Of a DNA stretch of 56,659 nucleotides, positions 1,039 through 30,996 are shown piece by piece (position 1 is the first letter of the stretch; each line of letters opens with the position of its first letter). Position numbers and translations under genes: made by a program. The notes below the pieces were generated by a model, which searched no databases, had not been told where the DNA came from, and saw nothing but the letters and a program-made list of their open reading frames with translations. Source of the DNA: Bacteroidota bacterium (GTDB lineage: Bacteria; Bacteroidota; Bacteroidia; Chitinophagales; Chitinophagaceae); NCBI GenBank assembly GCA_030706635.1, contig JAUZOD010000025.1, forward strand, positions 1-56,659, in the 5' to 3' direction.

Positions 1039-2544
1039 ATGAAAATAGTCATGGGTCTGCTGTTCTCGGGATCTGTTCTTTTCGGCGTTGCGCAGAAGAA
1101 AACAGATCCTGTTATTTTCGGGAATACCATCCGCGCGGAAAATCTCAGCAGAGACCTTCACGTAGTTGCCAGCGCCGGCTTTGAAGGCAGGGAAACAGCC
1201 ACGGAAGGACAGCGGAAAGCCGCGGCGTATATCGAAGACTTTTTTAGATCCATCGGACTTCAGCCGGGGAATGACTCCAGTTACCAGCTTCCGTTTCCGG
1301 TATATCAGGATTCTCTGGAAGACGCGTACTTTGAAATAAATAAAAACAGCTTCGAACTTTTCAGGGATTATGATTTCTCTCTTGGAAATAACTATTCCGC
1401 CAGTTTTGGAAGCAACCAGGTAGTTTATGCCGGTTACGGGATCTCGGACTCTTCCAGAGATGATTATCGGGGATTGAATGTGAATGGGAAAATCGTTTTG
1501 GTGCGAAACGGATACCCGGATGGATATATCACCCGGCAGCTCGGCAGAAGCAGGTTTAATGCCTATACGAAACAGGATGCTGCCCAAAAGCACGGCGCCG
1601 TCGCCCTCCTGGTGATTCAAAGCGATTTCCCGCATGTCGCCGTCACGCCGAAGGGAAACATGTACCGGCAGGTTTACCGGACCGTGATCCGTCCGCTGCG
1701 CATTAATATTTCAGATCGTGCCGCCCGTTCCATCATGGGAGCAGATTATGACCTGCTAAAGAATGATTCCCTCCCGGCCAAAACTTATAACTGCGATATC
1801 TGGCTCTCGCTGAACAAGAAAACAGAATTTCTTCAAAGCACCGATGTATTAGGGTATCTGGAAGGAACAGACCTGAAAAACCAGCTACTGATCATTTCCG
1901 CTCATTACGATCATCTCGGAAAACAGGATTCGGTGATTTATTACGGCGCTGATGATGACGGTTCAGGTACGGTAAGCGTACTGGAGATTGCCTCCGCTTT
2001 TTCAAAAGCGAAAGCCGCCGGAATGGGCCCGCGCAGAAGTATTCTTTTTCTCGCAAATTCAGGAGAGGAGAAAGGTTTGTGGGGATCTGAATTCTATACA
2101 GAACATCCCGTTTACCCTCTTGAAAAAACAACAGCAGACCTCAATATCGATATGATCGGAAGAAAGGATCCGGGAAGAAAACAGGGCGATTCCAACAACT
2201 ATGTTTATGTAGTGGGAGATAATAAACTCAGTTCCGAACTACATCCGCTGAGTGTTGCCATGAATCGCAAATACACAAAACTTGAGCTCGACTATAAATT
2301 CAACGACCCCAGCGACCCGCTCCGGATCTACTACCGTAGCGATCATTTTAACTTTGCCCGAAAGGGCGTTCCGGTTATTTTTTATTTTGACGGCATTCAC
2401 CACGACTACCACCGGCCCACCGATACAGCAGATAAAATCAATTATGATCTGTTGGAGAAAAGAGCCCGTCTGGTATTTTATACGGCCTGGGAAATGGCGA
2501 ACCGGAAAAATGAAATGAAAAGAGATCTTCCGGCTGTTGAATAA
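1039..2544 (+). CDS. M28 family zinc metallopeptidase with PA domain
   Basis: A secreted di-zinc aminopeptidase or exopeptidase of family M28, 501 residues from the ATG at 1039. A TTG eight codons upstream is possible, but the ATG puts a clean signal peptide (MKIVMGLLFSGSVLFGVAQ) at the N-terminus. A protease-associated (PA) insert covers roughly residues 85-215. Metal and catalytic residues are visible: H289 in SAHYDHLG, D305 in GADDDGSG, E343/E344 in NSGEEKG, D371 in NIDMIG and H454/H455 in the last motif. It probably acts in the periplasm or outside the cell on peptides. The substrate is not predictable. Confidence 0.9.
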   Translation: MKIVMGLLFSGSVLFGVAQKKTDPVIFGNTIRAENLSRDLHVVASAGFEGRETATEGQRKAAAYIEDFFRSIGLQPGNDSSYQLPFPVYQDSLEDAYFEINKNSFELFRDYDFSLGNNYSASFGSNQVVYAGYGISDSSRDDYRGLNVNGKIVLVRNGYPDGYITRQLGRSRFNAYTKQDAAQKHGAVALLVIQSDFPHVAVTPKGNMYRQVYRTVIRPLRINISDRAARSIMGADYDLLKNDSLPAKTYNCDIWLSLNKKTEFLQSTDVLGYLEGTDLKNQLLIISAHYDHLGKQDSVIYYGADDDGSGTVSVLEIASAFSKAKAAGMGPRRSILFLANSGEEKGLWGSEFYTEHPVYPLEKTTADLNIDMIGRKDPGRKQGDSNNYVYVVGDNKLSSELHPLSVAMNRKYTKLELDYKFNDPSDPLRIYYRSDHFNFARKGVPVIFYFDGIHHDYHRPTDTADKINYDLLEKRARLVFYTAWEMANRKNEMKRDLPAVE

Positions 2545-2822: not shown

Positions 2823-3294
2823 AATTAACCGGTTTTAAAAATTAAAATTACCTTATAATCATCATGTACGCAAATTGGGTTTTATCGGATGCTGGTCCAT
2901 TCGATAATAGTTGTCACCGGCAGTCGGCAATTGTGTTTGACAGGCAAGACATGTTCCTTACCATTGCCAATGCGTTTGAAGATACCGGTTTCAGGACTTA
3001 TAAAGGACAGGCCGCCAATCTTTTAGGCACAGATGCGCTAGCGTTGGCCTCGACATTCGCTCCGCGTGAAAGTACGCCAATACCATCAACCATTTGCCTT
3101 TTCCTTAAGCTTGAAGGGCCGGCTGCCTGCCGGCTCCTTCATTTGACCGGGTTCTACAGGATTACCCTTAGAAATGCATAAATACGGGGCATAAAAGTGC
3201 ATTCCACTCCCTGTTTACCCCGGATATTGCTGTTGTTTATCAGGAAAAAACTGTAATTTACCCTGCAACGATTGTTCACTCCAAAATTAGCTTT
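2823..3294. other. Intergenic region without a convincing gene
   Basis: A 472-bp gap between divergent tatA and the CBS-domain gene. A 105-codon frame crosses it, but its translation has no recognisable domain and looks compositionally unlike the neighbours. A hairpin lies at 3113-3140: GAAGG and CCGGC pair with GCCGG and CCTTC, with a TGCCT loop and a one-base bulge. No T run follows it. The region may be a decayed gene. I see nothing else. Confidence 0.4.
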
Positions 3295-24674: not shown

Positions 24675-25760
24675 TCATGAATTCATCACTTTGTTCTGAT
24701 GGTTGATACTCTCCATATGCACTGCATCAAAATACTTGGTTATGAATTCCTTGCTCAGCCCGAGTTTATCCCCTTTTTTAAAAGCCCTTTCCAGAATGGA
24801 ATTCCAGCGGTTGGTCTGCAGGATGGTAATATTATTTTCCTTCTTGTATAAGCCGATCTTTTCCGATATTTTCATGCGTTCACCAATGATCTGCATCAGC
24901 TCATCATCCAGATGGTTGATCTGTTGCCTTAATTTCTCCAGTGCTGCGTGATATTCTTCAGAAGCAACATCTTCTTTTCTCCAGCGGATGCTATTGAGCA
25001 TTTCAGCCAGTCTTTCAGGCGTTACCTGCTGTTTCGCATCGCTCCAGGCTTTATCAGGATCAACATGACTTTCAATGATCAGTCCGTCAAAATCCAGGTC
25101 AATCGCCGTTTGAGCCACATCCAGCAGAATATCCCGCCGGCCGCAGATATGCGATGGATCGTTGATAAACAACATATCGGGAAACCGGCGTTTCATTTCA
25201 ATGGCCAGATGCCACATCGGTGCATTCCGGTATTCTGAATTTCCATAAGAGCTGAATCCGCGGTGAATGAGTCCGATTTGCTTGATGCCAGCTTTGGCAA
25301 CACGTTCCACCGCACCGATCCAAAGTTCAATGTCGGGGTTAATCGGGTTCTTGATCAGCACCGGCACATCCACGCCTTTCAGCGCATCAGCAACATCCTG
25401 CACACTGAACGGGTTGACGGTTGTTCTGGCGCCCAGCCACAGAATGTCCACTTCAAAATGAAGCGCATCTTCCACCTGTTTGGCCGTAGCCACTTCCACA
25501 GCTACCGGTATACCCGTAACTTTTCTTGCACTCTGCAACCAGGGCAGGCCTTTGGTTCCGATGCCTTCGAAACTTCCCGGGCGTGTACGGGGTTTCCAGA
25601 TACCCGCCCGCATTACGTCAACCTTTCCGGTGCGCTGCAGCTGTACGGCGGTCTCCATCACCTGCTCTTCCGTTTCCGCGCTGCAGGGACCGGAAATAAT
25701 CAACGGGCGTTTGATCCAGGCCTGTTGGGTAATTTCTTTCATTGATTTTGCTTCTGTCAT
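24675..25760 (-). CDS. Bifunctional DAHP synthase / chorismate mutase
   Basis: A 361-residue fusion. The N-terminal type I-beta DAHP synthase (about 1-265; GPCSAETEEQV, RAGIWKPRTRPGSFEG, LIHRGFSSYG, INDPSHICGRR, DGLIIESHV) condenses PEP and erythrose 4-phosphate. The C-terminal AroQ chorismate mutase (about 275-361; LEKLRQQINHLDDELMQII, RMKISEKIGLYK) makes prephenate. This order is known from Porphyromonas and Prevotella, where the mutase also serves feedback control. It supplies the mutase that the mono-functional PheA and TyrA here lack. Starts upstream of 25760 lie in repeat DNA and are rejected. Confidence 0.94.
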   Translation of the reverse strand: MTEAKSMKEITQQAWIKRPLIISGPCSAETEEQVMETAVQLQRTGKVDVMRAGIWKPRTRPGSFEGIGTKGLPWLQSARKVTGIPVAVEVATAKQVEDALHFEVDILWLGARTTVNPFSVQDVADALKGVDVPVLIKNPINPDIELWIGAVERVAKAGIKQIGLIHRGFSSYGNSEYRNAPMWHLAIEMKRRFPDMLFINDPSHICGRRDILLDVAQTAIDLDFDGLIIESHVDPDKAWSDAKQQVTPERLAEMLNSIRWRKEDVASEEYHAALEKLRQQINHLDDELMQIIGERMKISEKIGLYKKENNITILQTNRWNSILERAFKKGDKLGLSKEFITKYFDAVHMESINHQNKVMNS

Positions 25761-25766
25761 ATAGAT

Positions 25767-25882
25767 CTGATTTGAAAATTTGAAATCAAATGTGGAAATG
25801 TGCTGATGTGATAATGTGTAAATCAATCTACTGATTTTGTCTTCATTACCACATTATCACATTATCACATTATCACATTACC
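25767..25882. repeat. Octamer array-loop-inverted array (copy H)
   Basis: Left arm: units of the type ATGTGGAA, ATGTGCTG, ATGTGATA, ATGTGTAA. Right arm: four inverted units TA(C/T)CACAT. They can fold into a long hairpin between the deaD stop and the DAHP synthase start. The left end holds CTGATTTGAAAATTTGAAA (25767-25785), repeated exactly at 27602-27620. The deaD TAA stop lies inside the first unit of the transcript (GGTAATGT). Confidence 0.8.
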
Positions 25883-27539
25883 GACTATTCGCATCATTCA
25901 TCCTGATCCTCCTGCCCCTGTAATTTTTCCCGTCTATGGCGCGGATCATCTGCGGAGCTGATTTCCGGTCGATCTCCAGCCAGCTGTTCATTTCTTTCAT
26001 ATCGATCTTCCCCAGCACGTCCTTTTTCAGGTCACTCATATCCAATACAAACTGGAGGAAGCTGGCTTTGTAAAAACCATCTTTGGTGCCCAGGTTCACA
26101 AACAACTTGACGAAATCCCCGTTGCCGGGAGAAAATGTTTTCCGTGGCCTGTCCTGCCCGATGGGAATGCGCTCCCTTTGGCCGCGAACCAGCGTGCTGT
26201 CCCGCTGCGGTGCGCGCACATTAAGATCTTCCGAATTTTCATAGTATTTGAGAAACCGGTCAAATTCCATGGCGGCTACCCGCTTCAACACTTCTTCCTT
26301 ACTGATGTCCGCAAACTTATCGGCCAGCATGGGAACATAGGTTTCATAATCTCCGTGACTGATATCTGCCTGTAATAATTTCTCCATAAAATGAAAGAAC
26401 TGTTTGCGGCAAACATCTTTCCCGGTTGGAATTTCCACTTTCCGGAATGGAACCTGCACGATCCGTTCAATCTGCCGGAGCTTCCCGATTTCGCGGGAGT
26501 GAATGATGGAAAGACAAATACCTGTATTTCCTGCCCGGCCCGTTCTTCCGCTTCTGTGCGTGTACACTTCCACATCATCCGGTAGTTCGTAGTTGATCAC
26601 ATGGGTGATGCCCTGAACATCAATACCCCGGGCTGCCACGTCTGTGGCGATCAGCAATTGCAGGGCTTTTTCCCTGAACTCTCCCATCACTTTGTCCCGT
26701 TGCTGCTGCGTAAGGTCGCCATGCAGGGCGTCGATATCATAGCCTTCGCGGGTTAATTTTTCGGCAATATTTTGCGCGTCTGCCTTAGTTCTGGTAAAGA
26801 TGATACCGTAAATACCCGGGTTAAAATCAATCAGCCGTTTCAATGCTTCAAAACGGTGGTGCGCGTTGGTAATAAAATACTGATGGTCAACCATTTTATT
26901 GGCTGTGTTCGTTTTGCCAACGGTGATCTCATACGGATCCTTCATGTATTTGCGGCTCACCCGCTTGATTTCCGCCGGCATGGTGGCGCTGAATAACCAG
27001 GTTGCATCCCTTTTCGGGGTGTTCTTCAGAATAAATTCAATATCATCCTGGAACCCCATATTCAACATTTCATCCGCTTCATCCAGAACCACGTATTTAA
27101 TTTCTTCCAGATTGATGGCCTTGCGTTCGATGAGGTCAATCAGGCGGCCAGGAGTAGCCACAACGATATGTACGCCTCTGCGAAGATCCCGGATCTGCAT
27201 ACCAATAGCTGAACCGCCATATACCGCCAACACCTGGACAGAGGGCATGAATTTTTTAAAAAGTTCTATTTCACTTACTATCTGAAGGCAAAGTTCACGG
27301 GTAGGACAAACCACCAGCGCCTGCGGGAACCGCTGCTCCAGGTTCAAAAGCTGCAACAATGGCAAGCCAAAAGCCGCTGTTTTTCCGGTTCCTGTCTGGG
27401 CCAGGCCCACGAGATCTTTCGTACCACTCAGTAATACAGGAATGGCCTTCTCCTGTATGGGGGTTGGCTGGGTAAACCCAAGTGCCGCAACGGCTTGCAG
27501 CAACGCCTCGTTTAAACCCAACCCTTCAAATGTGCTCAT
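25878..27539 (-). CDS. DEAD-box RNA helicase with DbpA-type RNA-binding domain
   Basis: A 553-residue ATP-dependent RNA helicase of the DeaD/CsdA type. Motifs: FTQPTPIQEKAIP (Q), AQTGTGKTAAF (I), PTRELCLQ (Ia), DEADEMLNMGF (II), FSATMP (III), ATDVAARGID (V) and HRSGRTGRAG (VI). The C-terminal 75 residues fit the DbpA RNA-binding domain (FVKLFVNLGTKDGFYKASFL). It probably acts in ribosome assembly and cold-phase RNA unfolding. It interrupts the aromatic gene cluster and is bracketed by octamer repeat elements. The ATG at 27539 is preferred over a start 14 codons upstream. Confidence 0.94.
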   Translation of the reverse strand: MSTFEGLGLNEALLQAVAALGFTQPTPIQEKAIPVLLSGTKDLVGLAQTGTGKTAAFGLPLLQLLNLEQRFPQALVVCPTRELCLQIVSEIELFKKFMPSVQVLAVYGGSAIGMQIRDLRRGVHIVVATPGRLIDLIERKAINLEEIKYVVLDEADEMLNMGFQDDIEFILKNTPKRDATWLFSATMPAEIKRVSRKYMKDPYEITVGKTNTANKMVDHQYFITNAHHRFEALKRLIDFNPGIYGIIFTRTKADAQNIAEKLTREGYDIDALHGDLTQQQRDKVMGEFREKALQLLIATDVAARGIDVQGITHVINYELPDDVEVYTHRSGRTGRAGNTGICLSIIHSREIGKLRQIERIVQVPFRKVEIPTGKDVCRKQFFHFMEKLLQADISHGDYETYVPMLADKFADISKEEVLKRVAAMEFDRFLKYYENSEDLNVRAPQRDSTLVRGQRERIPIGQDRPRKTFSPGNGDFVKLFVNLGTKDGFYKASFLQFVLDMSDLKKDVLGKIDMKEMNSWLEIDRKSAPQMIRAIDGKNYRGRRIRMNDANSR

Positions 27540-27601
27540 ACTGTTCAAAAATTTTGCGCAAAGGTACGATTTCTGTGCCAAGAGCCTGTGGGGCGGATGT
27601 G

Positions 27602-27713
27602 CTGATTTGAAAATTTGAAAATGTGTAAATGCTCCGGTGTGTCACCCCATTTTCAAATTCCCACATTTTCAAATCTTCAAATCAGCACATTACCACATTT
27701 CCACATCAGCACC
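27602..27713. repeat. Octamer array-loop-inverted array (copy I)
   Basis: Read in the transcript direction (minus) it is a run of octamers of the type GNNNAT(G/T)T: GCTGATGT, GGAAATGT, GGTAATGT, GCTGATTT, GAAGATTT, GAAAATGT. Then come a short loop and inverted units. It begins directly after the tyrA stop (27714) and ends before the deaD start. It shares the 19-bp CTGATTTGAAAATTTGAAA with copy H. Confidence 0.8.
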
Positions 27714-28562
27714 TTACCTCAGAATCCGCTTGATCTTATTCGCATTCTCCATCAATTCCTTCAGATACGTATAATTTTCTTTTTCCAGACAACTTTTGAA
27801 TTTTCTCAACTGGGAAATGTGTTCATTCAGCACGTCCAGCACATTCTCCCGGTTCTGCATAAAAATCGGCGCCCACATGGACGGACTGCTTTTTGCCAGC
27901 CGCACGGTACTCTCAAAACCACCTCCCGCCAGTTCGAAAATGGCATCCTCTTCCCGCTCTTTTTCCAATACGGTATTTGCGAGAGCAAAAGAGGTAATGT
28001 GTGAAATGTGGCTCACATAAGCCGCGTGTACGTCATGACTTTTTGCGTTCATATACACCAGCGACATCCCCAGTAAAGAATAGATTTTTTCCATCGTGGC
28101 GACCGCATCGGGCGCTGATTTTTCCTTTTCGCAAATCACACAGGAGCGCCCCCGGAACGCATGGTGCACGGCGGCCTCAGGACCGCTGTATTCCGTTCCC
28201 CACATAGGATGTGTTGCAACAAACCGGTTTCTCTTCGGATGATCCGCGAGTGTCTCGCAAAGCGCCTGTTTGGTAGAACCGGCATCCGCCACAATCTGCC
28301 TGTCTGTGATGATGTCCATGATGGTCTTCATCACCGGCAGCGTAGCATCTACAGGAATGGCCACATAAATCAAATCGCTCTGCCTTACCGCTTCATCCAG
28401 CGGCAACACTTCGTCAATAATCCCCAGTTCCAGTGCCCGCTCTGCACTCGCCCCCGTGCGGCTTACCCCGATTACCTTACCTGCCAGCTGATGGTCCTTC
28501 AGGGCCAGACTGAAAGATCCGCTGATCAACCCTACCCCGACAATGGTGACCGTATTAAACAT
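27714..28562 (-). CDS. tyrA: Prephenate dehydrogenase
   Basis: A 282-residue TyrA that oxidatively decarboxylates prephenate to 4-hydroxyphenylpyruvate for tyrosine. The Rossmann start VGVGLISGSFSLALK, the catalytic-site HPMWGTEYSGPEAA and the helical dimer domain (HDVHAAYVSHISHITSFAL) are clear. There is no chorismate mutase or ACT domain attached. Its start overlaps the aminotransferase stop by 8 bp, so translation is coupled. Confidence 0.93.
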   Translation of the reverse strand: MFNTVTIVGVGLISGSFSLALKDHQLAGKVIGVSRTGASAERALELGIIDEVLPLDEAVRQSDLIYVAIPVDATLPVMKTIMDIITDRQIVADAGSTKQALCETLADHPKRNRFVATHPMWGTEYSGPEAAVHHAFRGRSCVICEKEKSAPDAVATMEKIYSLLGMSLVYMNAKSHDVHAAYVSHISHITSFALANTVLEKEREEDAIFELAGGGFESTVRLAKSSPSMWAPIFMQNRENVLDVLNEHISQLRKFKSCLEKENYTYLKELMENANKIKRILR

Positions 28563-29751
28563 GTTGTTTTGATTTTAATATGCCCGCCTGTTTGATCCGC
28601 CCGATGCTCTCCAGTATGTTTTCTTCCGATGCACATAAGCTAACCCTCACGTATTCATCGCCTGCGCTGCCAAAAATACCACCGGGCGTAATGAATACCC
28701 CGGCCTCATATAATACCAGATCACTCAGGCTGTATCCGTCTTTTACCGTTTCCGGAATTCTGGCCCACACGAACATACCTGCCTGTTTTTTGGAATACCG
28801 GCAACCCATCTCATCCAGCAGCGCTTCCACCGCCATCCTTCTCTTTCGGTAAAGGCTATTCACCTCGCTATACCAGGATGCCGGGAGGGACAGCGCTTTG
28901 GCCGCGGCCAGCTGAACCGGTAAAAACATCCCGCTATCCATATTGCTTTTAAATCGTAATACTTCGTCTATTCGTTCCCGTGATGCCATCAGCATACCTA
29001 CACGCCAGCCGGCCATATTGTGCGATTTGCTCAGGGAATTCAATTCAATCACCTGGTCTTTAGCTCCTTCCACCTGCAGCATGCTCAGGGGTTCCTCGTT
29101 CAGAATAAAACTATACGGGTTATCATGAACCAGTAAAATGCGGTTTGTTCTGGCAAAGGATACCAGTTCTTCGAATAGTTTTTTATCCGGCAGCTGTCCC
29201 GTTGGCATTTGCGGATAGTTCACAAACATCAGCACCCATTCCTGACCTGCCCTTTTTTTTGTCAACAGCGTTTTTAAATCCTCAAAATCGGGTAACCAGT
29301 TATTTTTTTCCGTGAGCAGATAGGCGATCACGTTTCCTCCTGCCAAACCCGCCGCACTGCGGTATGTGGGATAGCCGGGATTGGGAATGAGTACCAGGTC
29401 GCCCGCATTGACATAGGTCATGCAGATGTGCATGATGCCCTCTTTAGAGCCGGCCAGCGGAAGAATCTCCTGATCCGGATCCAGCTCAACCCCATACCAC
29501 TGACGATACCAGGCAGCCATAGCTTTTCTGAGCACCGGAGATCCCTTGTAACTCTGATAGCTGTGCACATTGGGTTTTACACTTTCTTCGTTCAACACCC
29601 GGATCACGTCGGGATGCGGAGGTTGATCCGGGCTTCCGATGCCCAGACTGATAATTCGTTTCCCTTCCCGGTTGAGCTTTTCAATCTCCCGCAATTTTGC
29701 AGAAAAATAATATTCGCCAATACCGTTTAACCGTTCTGCTGTCTGTATCAT
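28555..29751 (-). CDS. Class I/II PLP aminotransferase, probably aromatic
   Basis: A 398-residue fold-type I aminotransferase. PLP ligands: N178 in NYPQMPTG, D210 in LVHDNPYSF, and Lys242 in SLSKSHNMAGWRVG. Its place between pheA and tyrA suggests it transaminates phenylpyruvate and 4-hydroxyphenylpyruvate to Phe and Tyr. An aspartate or LL-diaminopimelate-like activity cannot be excluded from sequence. The ATG at 29751 starts the family-like MIQTAERLNGIGEYYF. Codons further upstream fall towards the octamer array and are unlikely. Confidence 0.9.
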   Translation of the reverse strand: MIQTAERLNGIGEYYFSAKLREIEKLNREGKRIISLGIGSPDQPPHPDVIRVLNEESVKPNVHSYQSYKGSPVLRKAMAAWYRQWYGVELDPDQEILPLAGSKEGIMHICMTYVNAGDLVLIPNPGYPTYRSAAGLAGGNVIAYLLTEKNNWLPDFEDLKTLLTKKRAGQEWVLMFVNYPQMPTGQLPDKKLFEELVSFARTNRILLVHDNPYSFILNEEPLSMLQVEGAKDQVIELNSLSKSHNMAGWRVGMLMASRERIDEVLRFKSNMDSGMFLPVQLAAAKALSLPASWYSEVNSLYRKRRMAVEALLDEMGCRYSKKQAGMFVWARIPETVKDGYSLSDLVLYEAGVFITPGGIFGSAGDEYVRVSLCASEENILESIGRIKQAGILKSKQHV

Positions 29752-29803
29752 CTGTTTGATTGTTGTCTCCGCCCTCCGAAACTTCAGCGAAGCCGGATTG
29801 AAT

Positions 29804-29851
29804 TCATTTCCACATTTACACATTTACATATCTCCACATTTTCACATCAGC
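29804..29851. repeat. Octamer array, single arm (copy J)
   Basis: In transcript direction: GCTGATGT, GAAAATGT, GGAGATAT, GTAAATGT, GTAAATGT, GGAAATGA. The pheA stop TGA (29847-29849) lies within the first unit. No inverted partner arm follows, so this copy cannot form the long hairpin of copies H and I. Confidence 0.75.
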
Positions 29852-30689
29852 TCACACTCTCCCCCTTTCGGTAAACTCCATAAATTTTAAGTTCAGAAGT
29901 TGCAGACTTTATTATTTCCACCACTTCGTGAAACTGGTCCAGGGAATCAAATTCCATATCCGCATGGAAGCTATATTTCCAGTCGCTGCCCGGAATAGGG
30001 TAAGACTGAAGTTTGCTCAGGTTGATGCCTCCCCCGGCTATCAGCGTGAGCACCCTGGCCAGGCTTCCCCTGGAATGATCCGTATGAAAAGTTACCGATG
30101 CCTTATTCGCCTCCTTCACGGGTTGAACCGTGTCTTTCCTTTGCAACACCAGGAAACGCGTATAGTTATTCTGCATCGTCTGAATGTCCGGCGCAATCAT
30201 CTCCAGGTCAAAAAGCCGGGATGCGAGTGCGCTGGCAATGCCCGCGATGTGTTTGCTCTTGCGCTGATGGATGTGTTTTGCACTGAGCGCCGTGTCTTCC
30301 GTTTCGACCAGTTTCCAATCGTGCTGATTTAAATAATCCAGACACTGGAGAATGGCCATCGGGTGGGAATGTACTTCGTGAATATCTTTCAGCGACACCC
30401 CCGGATTAACCAGCAGGTTCTGCCGGATCTGCAAATAAATCTCTCCGGAAATCTGCAGCTCGCTGTTGCGTAACAGCGAGTAGTTGGGCAGGATGCTGCC
30501 GGCAATGGAATTCTCGATGGCCATAACAGCGGCATCACAAACATTTTTGTCGCCTGCTGCTTTGACAACCTCCTGAAACCGTGCACAGGCCAATATGCCG
30601 ATATGCTCACCGAAGAGAATACGGGCTGCTTCCTGGTGAAAACTGCCTTCATATCCCTGAATGGCTACCCGTTGTATCTGTTGCTGCAT
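29847..30689 (-). CDS. pheA: Prephenate dehydratase with ACT domain
   Basis: A 280-residue mono-functional PheA that converts prephenate to phenylpyruvate. The catalytic domain begins VAIQGYEGSFHQEAA and has the TRF motif at 177-179 (NNYTRFLVL). The C-terminal ACT domain (about 195-272) should bind Phe. Its usual ESRP signature reads QSYP here (228-231), so feedback behaviour may differ. It is the first enzyme gene of the aromatic cluster. Its ATG lies only 6 bp after the T run of an intrinsic terminator, with a Phe/Tyr-rich leader peptide upstream. Confidence 0.95.
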   Translation of the reverse strand: MQQQIQRVAIQGYEGSFHQEAARILFGEHIGILACARFQEVVKAAGDKNVCDAAVMAIENSIAGSILPNYSLLRNSELQISGEIYLQIRQNLLVNPGVSLKDIHEVHSHPMAILQCLDYLNQHDWKLVETEDTALSAKHIHQRKSKHIAGIASALASRLFDLEMIAPDIQTMQNNYTRFLVLQRKDTVQPVKEANKASVTFHTDHSRGSLARVLTLIAGGGINLSKLQSYPIPGSDWKYSFHADMEFDSLDQFHEVVEIIKSATSELKIYGVYRKGESVS

Positions 30690-30695
30690 AATAAT

Positions 30696-30723
30696 AAAAA
30701 AAAATCCCGGCTTTTGACCGGGA
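30696..30723 (-). terminator. Attenuator terminator in front of pheA
   Basis: On the minus strand TCCCGG-TCAAAAG-CCGGGA is followed by nine T (30696-30704) and then by the pheA start region. The promoter-proximal TCCCGGTC can instead pair with GACCGGGA in the leader frame (30775-30768). The distal CAAAAGCC can pair with GGCTTTTG (30767-30760). Either pairing would break the terminator. Confidence 0.8.
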
Positions 30724-30744
30724 CGTTATTGTTAAAAATTTAGA

Positions 30745-30834
30745 TTAGTTGTTGATTAACAAAAGCCTTCCCGGTCTACTGGTAAAGTAGAAAAAATAAA
30801 AACCAAAAAAACGGTATGCTTTTGAATTGTACAT
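30745..30834 (-). CDS. Phe/Tyr-rich leader peptide of the pheA attenuator
   Basis: A 29-codon frame starting ATG at 30834 and ending TAA at 30745. The first 17 residues read MYNSKAYRFFGFYFFYF, then TSRPGRLLLINN. Six Phe and four Tyr codons, eight of them in a nine-residue stretch with one Gly (residues 9-17), are the hallmark of a phe-operon leader. The Phe/Tyr run lies just 5' of the bases that can pair with the terminator arms. A ribosome stalled there for lack of charged tRNA-Phe or tRNA-Tyr would leave those bases free and prevent termination. A ribosome finishing the peptide would cover them. Role inferred from this architecture; not tested. Confidence 0.8.
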   Translation of the reverse strand: MYNSKAYRFFGFYFFYFTSRPGRLLLINN

Positions 30835-30843
30835 ATACGCCGC

Positions 30844-30874
30844 CAAAAATAACCACTTCGGGTGAACCGGCAAA
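30844..30874 (-). promoter_or_regulatory. Promoter of the pheA attenuator and aromatic cluster
   Basis: Minus strand: TTTG (30874-30871), 19 bp, TATTTTTG (30851-30844). This fits the Bacteroidota consensus TTTG / TAnnTTTG exactly in motifs and spacing. The leader ATG follows after 9 bp, so the transcript would have a very short 5' end, or be nearly leaderless, before the leader peptide. Confidence 0.65.
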
Positions 30875-30903
30875 GTTTTATTTTTTTGGCAGCCCTTTCA
30901 GGA

Positions 30904-30996
30904 GGTGGATGGTATATGGTTGATGGAATTTTTAGGTTTGAATTCGCACCTGATTTCCATCAACCATAAACCATATACCATATACCTCTCCTATTC
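30904..30996. repeat. Heptamer array-loop-inverted array element (copy B)
   Basis: Plus strand: GGTGGATGGTATATGG units, a loop with GAATTCGCACCTGATTTC, then inverted CCATCAA, CCATAAA, CCATATA, CCATATA units. It closes with CTCTCCTATTC, the complement of GAATAGGAGAG. The upstream gene's TAG stop (30991-30993) is in this border. Confidence 0.8.

Follow-up and report, generated by a model that had tools for sequence, protein, structure and literature searches.

The pheA gene in the window, i.e. the whole stretch of 56,659 nucleotides analysed here (contig C81 of a host genome of 4.58 Mb), is preceded by what is very probably a ribosome-mediated transcription attenuator, the leader peptide of which samples both Phe-tRNA and Tyr-tRNA. 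At the level of sequence, the leader, its control codons, the promoter box, three pairings, the terminator and the order of the genes are established, and from these we infer a dual sensing of Phe and Tyr. The elements of the leader locus are the following:

30871-30874, minus strand: -33 promoter element TTTG, read from the sequence, with 19 bases between it and the -7 element
30844-30851, minus strand: -7 promoter element TATTTTTG, of the TAnnTTTG consensus, read from the sequence
30837-30841, minus strand: predicted transcription start (about 30839), derived from the TAnnTTTG spacing of F. psychrophilum
30745-30834, minus strand: leader peptide frame MYNSKAYRFFGFYFFYFTSRPGRLLLINN, 29 codons with six Phe and four Tyr, read from the sequence
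30812-30824, minus strand: region 1, CAAAAGCATACCG, pairing with region 2 (fold, swapped-duplex test, pair counts)
30784-30810, minus strand: Phe/Tyr control codons 9-17, FFGFYFFYF (TWY-only coding in relatives)
30756-30776, minus strand: region 2, GACCGGGAAGGCTTTTGTTAA, within the leader frame (1:2 and 2:3 pair counts, swapped-duplex test)
30716-30735, minus strand: region 3, TTAACAA...TCCCGGTC, forming the antiterminator with region 2 (pair counts, partial-transcript fold)
30704-30724, minus strand: 3:4 terminator hairpin GTCCCGGT-caaaa-GCCGGGAT (sequence, pair counts, consensus fold)
30696-30704, minus strand: T tract of the terminator, nine T including the last base of the hairpin, read from the sequence

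The promoter TTTG-N19-TATTTTTG proposed in the initial annotation is found on the minus strand at 30874-30871 and 30851-30844, as are its 29-codon leader with six Phe and four Tyr (30834-30745) and its hairpin with nine T (30724-30696), which six bases separate from the pheA ATG at 30689. The leader ATG at 30834 lies 9 bases 3' of TATTTTTG. As TAnnTTTG is reported to occupy positions -12 to -5 in F. psychrophilum (PMC9723704), transcription is predicted to start near 30839, which falls inside the interval 30835-30840 given earlier and would leave just some 5 bases of 5' UTR. The leader of the window folds better than most of its shuffled versions (z = -2.86), one of 200 shuffles being equally good. 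With respect to the pairings, the initial annotation had put forward two of 8 bp. That between GACCGGGA (30776-30769) and TCCCGGTC (30723-30716) holds, the two being full complements and part of the conserved 2:3 antiterminator. The other, between GGCTTTTG (30767-30760) and the CAAAAGCC of the terminator, is complementary as letters but is not a conserved pairing, and it was rejected as a functional one, as the terminator loop varies in the relatives (alignment A1, below) and the pairing crosses the first; the two can therefore not be combined into one simple antiterminator hairpin. The last seven letters of GGCTTTTG are also complementary to CAAAAGC (30824-30818) inside the leader, a better supported partner, and this pairing is both present in the single-strand fold and counted in the relatives. 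Neither this upstream 1:2 pairing nor the inner pairing TTGTTAA:TTAACAA had been noted before.

The leader is kept throughout the close relatives. From 110 related loci, the PheA of which is mostly 65-87% identical to that of the window, 97 distinct loci (window included) retained sufficient upstream DNA after removal of repeats, and an F/Y-rich leader precedes pheA in all 97, in 96 as detected by script and in L074 by eye (MKHINTYNWQSFCFYYFSSKPGMVCTH). Under a denser definition, an open reading frame of 12-36 codons with at least seven F/Y in 10 residues, a leader is found in 95 of these 97 upstream regions compared to three of 2480 control tiles taken from these loci. The TAnnTTTG box ends 4-10 bases 5' of the leader ATG in 78 of the 97 distinct loci, a placing seen in 211 of 20,600 shuffles, while the exact box was not found within 40 bases in 15 of the 97. 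A TTG is situated 17-21 bases 5' of the box in 67 of 88 box-bearing rows (seven rows of the full table repeat a locus). A terminator between the leader and the first gene was detected by script in 87 of 103 rows, seven of which repeat a locus; in the other 16 the hairpin is visible in the sequence, with a poor T run in L020 and L083. One of the loci, L066, stems from a record that bears the title Williamsia sp., the name of an actinobacterium, and carries a Chitinophagaceae-type pheA locus with an F/Y leader; the record is probably a mislabelled bin.

Three mutually exclusive pairings, 1:2, 2:3 and 3:4, can be followed in alignment A1, which holds 66 of the 67 representative leaders (L080 was omitted as its stretch is too long). 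The terminator 3:4 is paired in 95.6% of cells, and five of its eight pairs have changes on both sides, amounting to 29 such cells. The antiterminator 2:3 is paired in 85.5% of cells; both partners have changed in 54 cells, 24 of which belong to a single column pair (83-123) that alternates between G-C and A-U, and the longer form of 1:2 is paired in 81.0%, with 18 cells changed on both sides. When the partner is slid by one to three columns, the paired share falls to at most 58.3% for all three. The controls on changed pairs are not clean for two of the pairings: for 2:3, 25 of 500 shuffles have at least as many changed pairs as the alignment itself, and in two slid versions there are 11 such pairs against the nine observed, while slid versions of 1:2 give similar both-side changes, up to 18 cells. 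As slid versions match or exceed the observed values, measures of both-side change are of no help for 1:2 and 2:3. In terms of duplex energy, cognate partners are on average more stable than swapped ones both for 1:2 (-15.62 compared to -13.8 kcal/mol) and for 2:3 (-24.39 compared to -20.93 kcal/mol), with none of 5000 permutations doing as well in either case (67 loci). Individually, the cognate 1:2 duplex ranks first among 67 swaps in L032 and L033, second in L040, L045, L066, L103 and L107 and third in L072, as tabulated for 18 loci; that of the window ranks 47 of 67, and several further loci are likewise unremarkable. Taken together, the pair changes and the cognate and swapped energies support three competing pairings of the kind expected of classical attenuation. 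The initial annotation had made its reading depend on conservation in relatives, and the leader frame, the F/Y codons, the terminator and the competing pairings are indeed kept, with compensatory changes. Its attenuator interpretation is in this way supported by comparison of sequences, whereas an effect of Phe and Tyr availability is predicted.

According to the proposed mechanism, a shortage of Phe-tRNA or Tyr-tRNA would stall the leading ribosome in or near the F/Y run, where it would block the pairing of region 1 and leave region 2 free; regions 2 and 3 would then pair, the terminator would not form, and transcription would proceed into pheA, the aminotransferase gene and tyrA. With both amino acids in ample supply, the ribosome would move over region 2, region 3 would be free, and the terminator would form and end transcription at about 30696. 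Translation of the leader, stalling and read-through, like the start site and the sufficiency of a shortage in either amino acid, are predictions of this model. Its switch was simulated for 67 leaders by blocking an assumed ribosome footprint of 30 bases and folding the transcript as far as the loop of the terminator. The mean pairing of region 3 with the leader is 0.95-1.0 as long as the P site is at least two codons short of the last F/Y codon, drops to 0.88 at a distance of one codon and to 0.20 on reaching it, and then lies between 0.14 (just past it) and 0.31 over the next nine codons. This collapse at the last F/Y codon places the end of the F/Y run at the point where the ribosome starts to cover region 2. 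Once the ribosome has come to rest at the stop codon, the mean pairing returns to 0.81, and the antiterminator is possible in most leaders; termination would therefore have to be settled during the passage of the ribosome over region 2, or through the 1:2 pairing after its release. In the window, the antiterminator also forms without a ribosome before the terminator is completed. Folding at equilibrium with a blocked footprint does not separate the states well, while folding of partial transcripts does so with the footprint assumed. At equilibrium with a stalled ribosome the terminator mostly prevails, falling below 0.5 in just eight of 67 leaders. Relative to the state with the ribosome at the stop codon, stalling weakens the terminator in 22 leaders, leaves it unchanged in 43 and strengthens it in two. 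The window is one of these two (0.78 at the stop codon and 0.83 when stalled), and a slightly longer transcript with a different measure gives 0.995 and 0.635. Since the terminator mostly wins at equilibrium even on a stall, the case for an attenuator depends on folding during transcription.

Downstream of the leader and terminator follow the genes for the two amino acids that would be sensed:

29847-30689, minus strand: pheA, prephenate dehydratase (PF00800, E 2.9e-54)
28555-29823, minus strand: class I/II aminotransferase (PF00155)
27714-28562, minus strand: tyrA, prephenate dehydrogenase (PF02153 and PF20463)
25878-27581, minus strand: helicase-like frame between tyrA and aroG, named by eye
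24675-25760, minus strand: aroG-type DAHP synthase/chorismate mutase fusion (PF00793 and PF01817)

The minus-strand order thus runs pheA, aminotransferase, tyrA, helicase-like frame, DAHP synthase/chorismate mutase fusion, aroB, aroA and aroC. Among 80 loci with named genes, the second gene after the leader is the aminotransferase in all 80 and the third is tyrA in 76, while 3' of tyrA, where the stretch covers it, a helicase is found in 34 and aroG in 35. The operon of pheA, the aminotransferase gene and tyrA presumably forms one transcript, to which the aroG-type gene may or may not belong; as the helicase gene sits between tyrA and aroG and long inverted repeats occupy both gaps, control past tyrA, over the whole ten-kilobase cluster considered in the initial annotation, is no more than a possibility. 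Three such intergenic inverted repeats, built of short AT-rich words with arms of up to 25 to 39 bases, are seen in the window (30902-30988, 27593-27690 and 25789-25882).

The leader extends well beyond the family of the window (Chitinophagaceae) into Bacteroidia, which we take to be the class of this genome. A search of 247 genomes of the class with the PheA of the window matched 72, its own genome included, and upstream regions were collected from 68 of the 71 other matches (G081, G087 and G269 were left out) and one further genome. With an ATG start and at least six F/Y in 10 residues as the rule, leaders are present in 45 of these 69 loci compared to one of 352 control tiles, the other 24 loci being without an F/Y leader under this stricter rule, and beyond the family the count is 42 of 65 pheA upstream regions. 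The box, where present, lies 15-32 bases 5' of the ATG in 17 of 19 leaders beyond the family, and because of this longer gap the almost leaderless arrangement seems characteristic of Chitinophagaceae and their near kin. In the genome of the window, a covariance model holding no pheA information recovered the window a single time (E 1.4e-17); a second copy there was rejected, the next match having an E of 0.485. Among the best 23 matches of the model in the class, 20 (including the window) lie before pheA and three before aroG. The latter (L203, L207 and L211) come from genomes of one genus, where the gene is the DAHP synthase/chorismate mutase and pheA lies some 3.5 kb further downstream in the same orientation, which argues that the leader goes with the operon. 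Four of the best 30 matches fall elsewhere (L215, L217, L218 and L221), have no F/Y-rich leader and were taken as chance terminators; many weaker matches follow below these 30.

The coding pattern of the F/Y core bears on the simpler readings of this locus. The core is T-rich, as would be expected if it were an RNA element, such as a binding site for a protein or metabolite, with the leader frame as a mere by-product and no regulatory translation. Yet the F/Y cores of the 67 representative leaders hold 635 TWY codons and not one TWR codon in frame, while in the other two frames 25 of 199 and 175 of 357 TW codons end in a purine, and such a constraint on the third position renders this reading very unlikely. 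Even less credible is a constitutive terminator, the hairpin merely lowering pheA expression in an unregulated manner. It would fit the equilibrium folds, in which the terminator prevails in the majority of states, and also the unguided consensus fold (RNAalifold), which recovers the terminator 3:4 alone, but it explains neither the F/Y codons nor the conserved competing pairings.

A more serious alternative is that only Phe shortage counts and that the Tyr codons are tolerated filler, as in an attenuator of the enterobacterial pheL kind. The first gene 3' of the leader is pheA in the close relatives examined, Phe codons somewhat outnumber Tyr codons (means of 5.5 and 4.2 per leader), and the pheL of E. 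coli has seven Phe codons and no Tyr. Against this, the counts per leader are 3-8 Phe and 2-6 Tyr in 67 of 67, and all 45 class leaders carry both (at least two Phe and at least one Tyr); the core moreover keeps TAY and avoids TAR, and the genes downstream serve both amino acids, while tyrA of E. coli is separate and on the other strand. Sensing of Phe alone is consequently considered unlikely. On balance, we lean towards the broader reading, in which a classical attenuator with joint sensing of Tyr and Phe is widespread in Bacteroidia and stands before the leading gene of the aromatic cluster, be it pheA or aroG. It would then be the first demonstrated case of a classical leader with Tyr codons as sensor, and the RNA from which it is translated in Chitinophagaceae would be almost leaderless. 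One leader sensing the products of both branches would explain how pheA and tyrA could share a transcript, with neither branch being starved, and such a leader is easily found by sequence.

Other short frames of this type were seen by eye in the genome of the window. A likely His leader MNISLNIHRHHSLPNR, with the box TATTTTTG and a terminator, is located just 5' of hisG (L140, about 2120-2290, minus strand, contig C130), and a likely Trp leader, MAKKLINNTWWWHTNSDRGA, likewise followed by a terminator, is found 5' of a gene for a chorismate-binding enzyme, probably trpE (L142, about 2910-3045, minus strand, contig C130). A Thr/Ile-rich short frame MIRLSKHIITIPAISRTIGGTIIISTTTL, comparable to the enterobacterial thrL, lies 5' of a long frame that has a homoserine dehydrogenase domain and is probably an aspartokinase fusion (L222, 268-451, contig C74). 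No match to LeuA_dimer (PF08502) was found in this genome (G000), which is listed as 99.93% complete.

Among the closest known systems is pheL-pheA of E. coli, in which a Phe-rich leader peptide is likewise situated 5' of pheA and an intrinsic terminator competes with alternative hairpins, as here. The locus of the window differs in its mix of Phe and Tyr codons, in the predicted 5' UTR of just about 5 bases, and in tyrA, which follows in the same direction rather than on the opposite strand. The enterobacterial thr and ilv operon leaders sense several amino acids and are alike in that a single leader monitors two or more aminoacyl-tRNAs whose amino acids are related end products, although other amino acids are sensed. 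Among Rfam families, Phe_leader (RF01859) scores best and over its full length here (24.3 bits, E 0.058), which is below its gathering threshold of 55, and no family recognises this leader in the window at the gathering threshold. T-box leaders, considered as a candidate, gave no match at gathering in the window and none up to E 10 in 30600-30950; tyrosine control has been ascribed to T-boxes and phenylalanine control to attenuators (PMC1262725). In titles and the beginnings of abstracts no mixed Phe/Tyr leader was found, nor, in the literature searched, was Tyr as the sensed codon of a classical attenuator, and little turned up on amino-acid attenuation in Bacteroidota; the available part of PMC4833913 does not mention pheA. 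A pheA attenuator as such is already noticed in the phylum: in F. psychrophilum a structured 5' element lies upstream of pheA and is conserved in other Flavobacteriaceae, with clues for leader-peptide attenuation before amino-acid operons (PMC9723704). Phylum and gene are the same as here, but the available part of that paper gives no leader sequence, Tyr or mechanism for pheA. Short frames resembling leader peptides are reported from Bacteroides thetaiotaomicron, where about 3.7% of 5' UTRs are shorter than 10 bases (PMC7366714), and 5.5% of the mRNAs examined in F. psychrophilum are leaderless (PMC9723704). A leader transcript that begins at or near the start codon, as predicted for the window, has a counterpart in trpL of Sinorhizobium meliloti, which begins at the ATG itself, though in another phylum and for another amino acid (PMC7298713).
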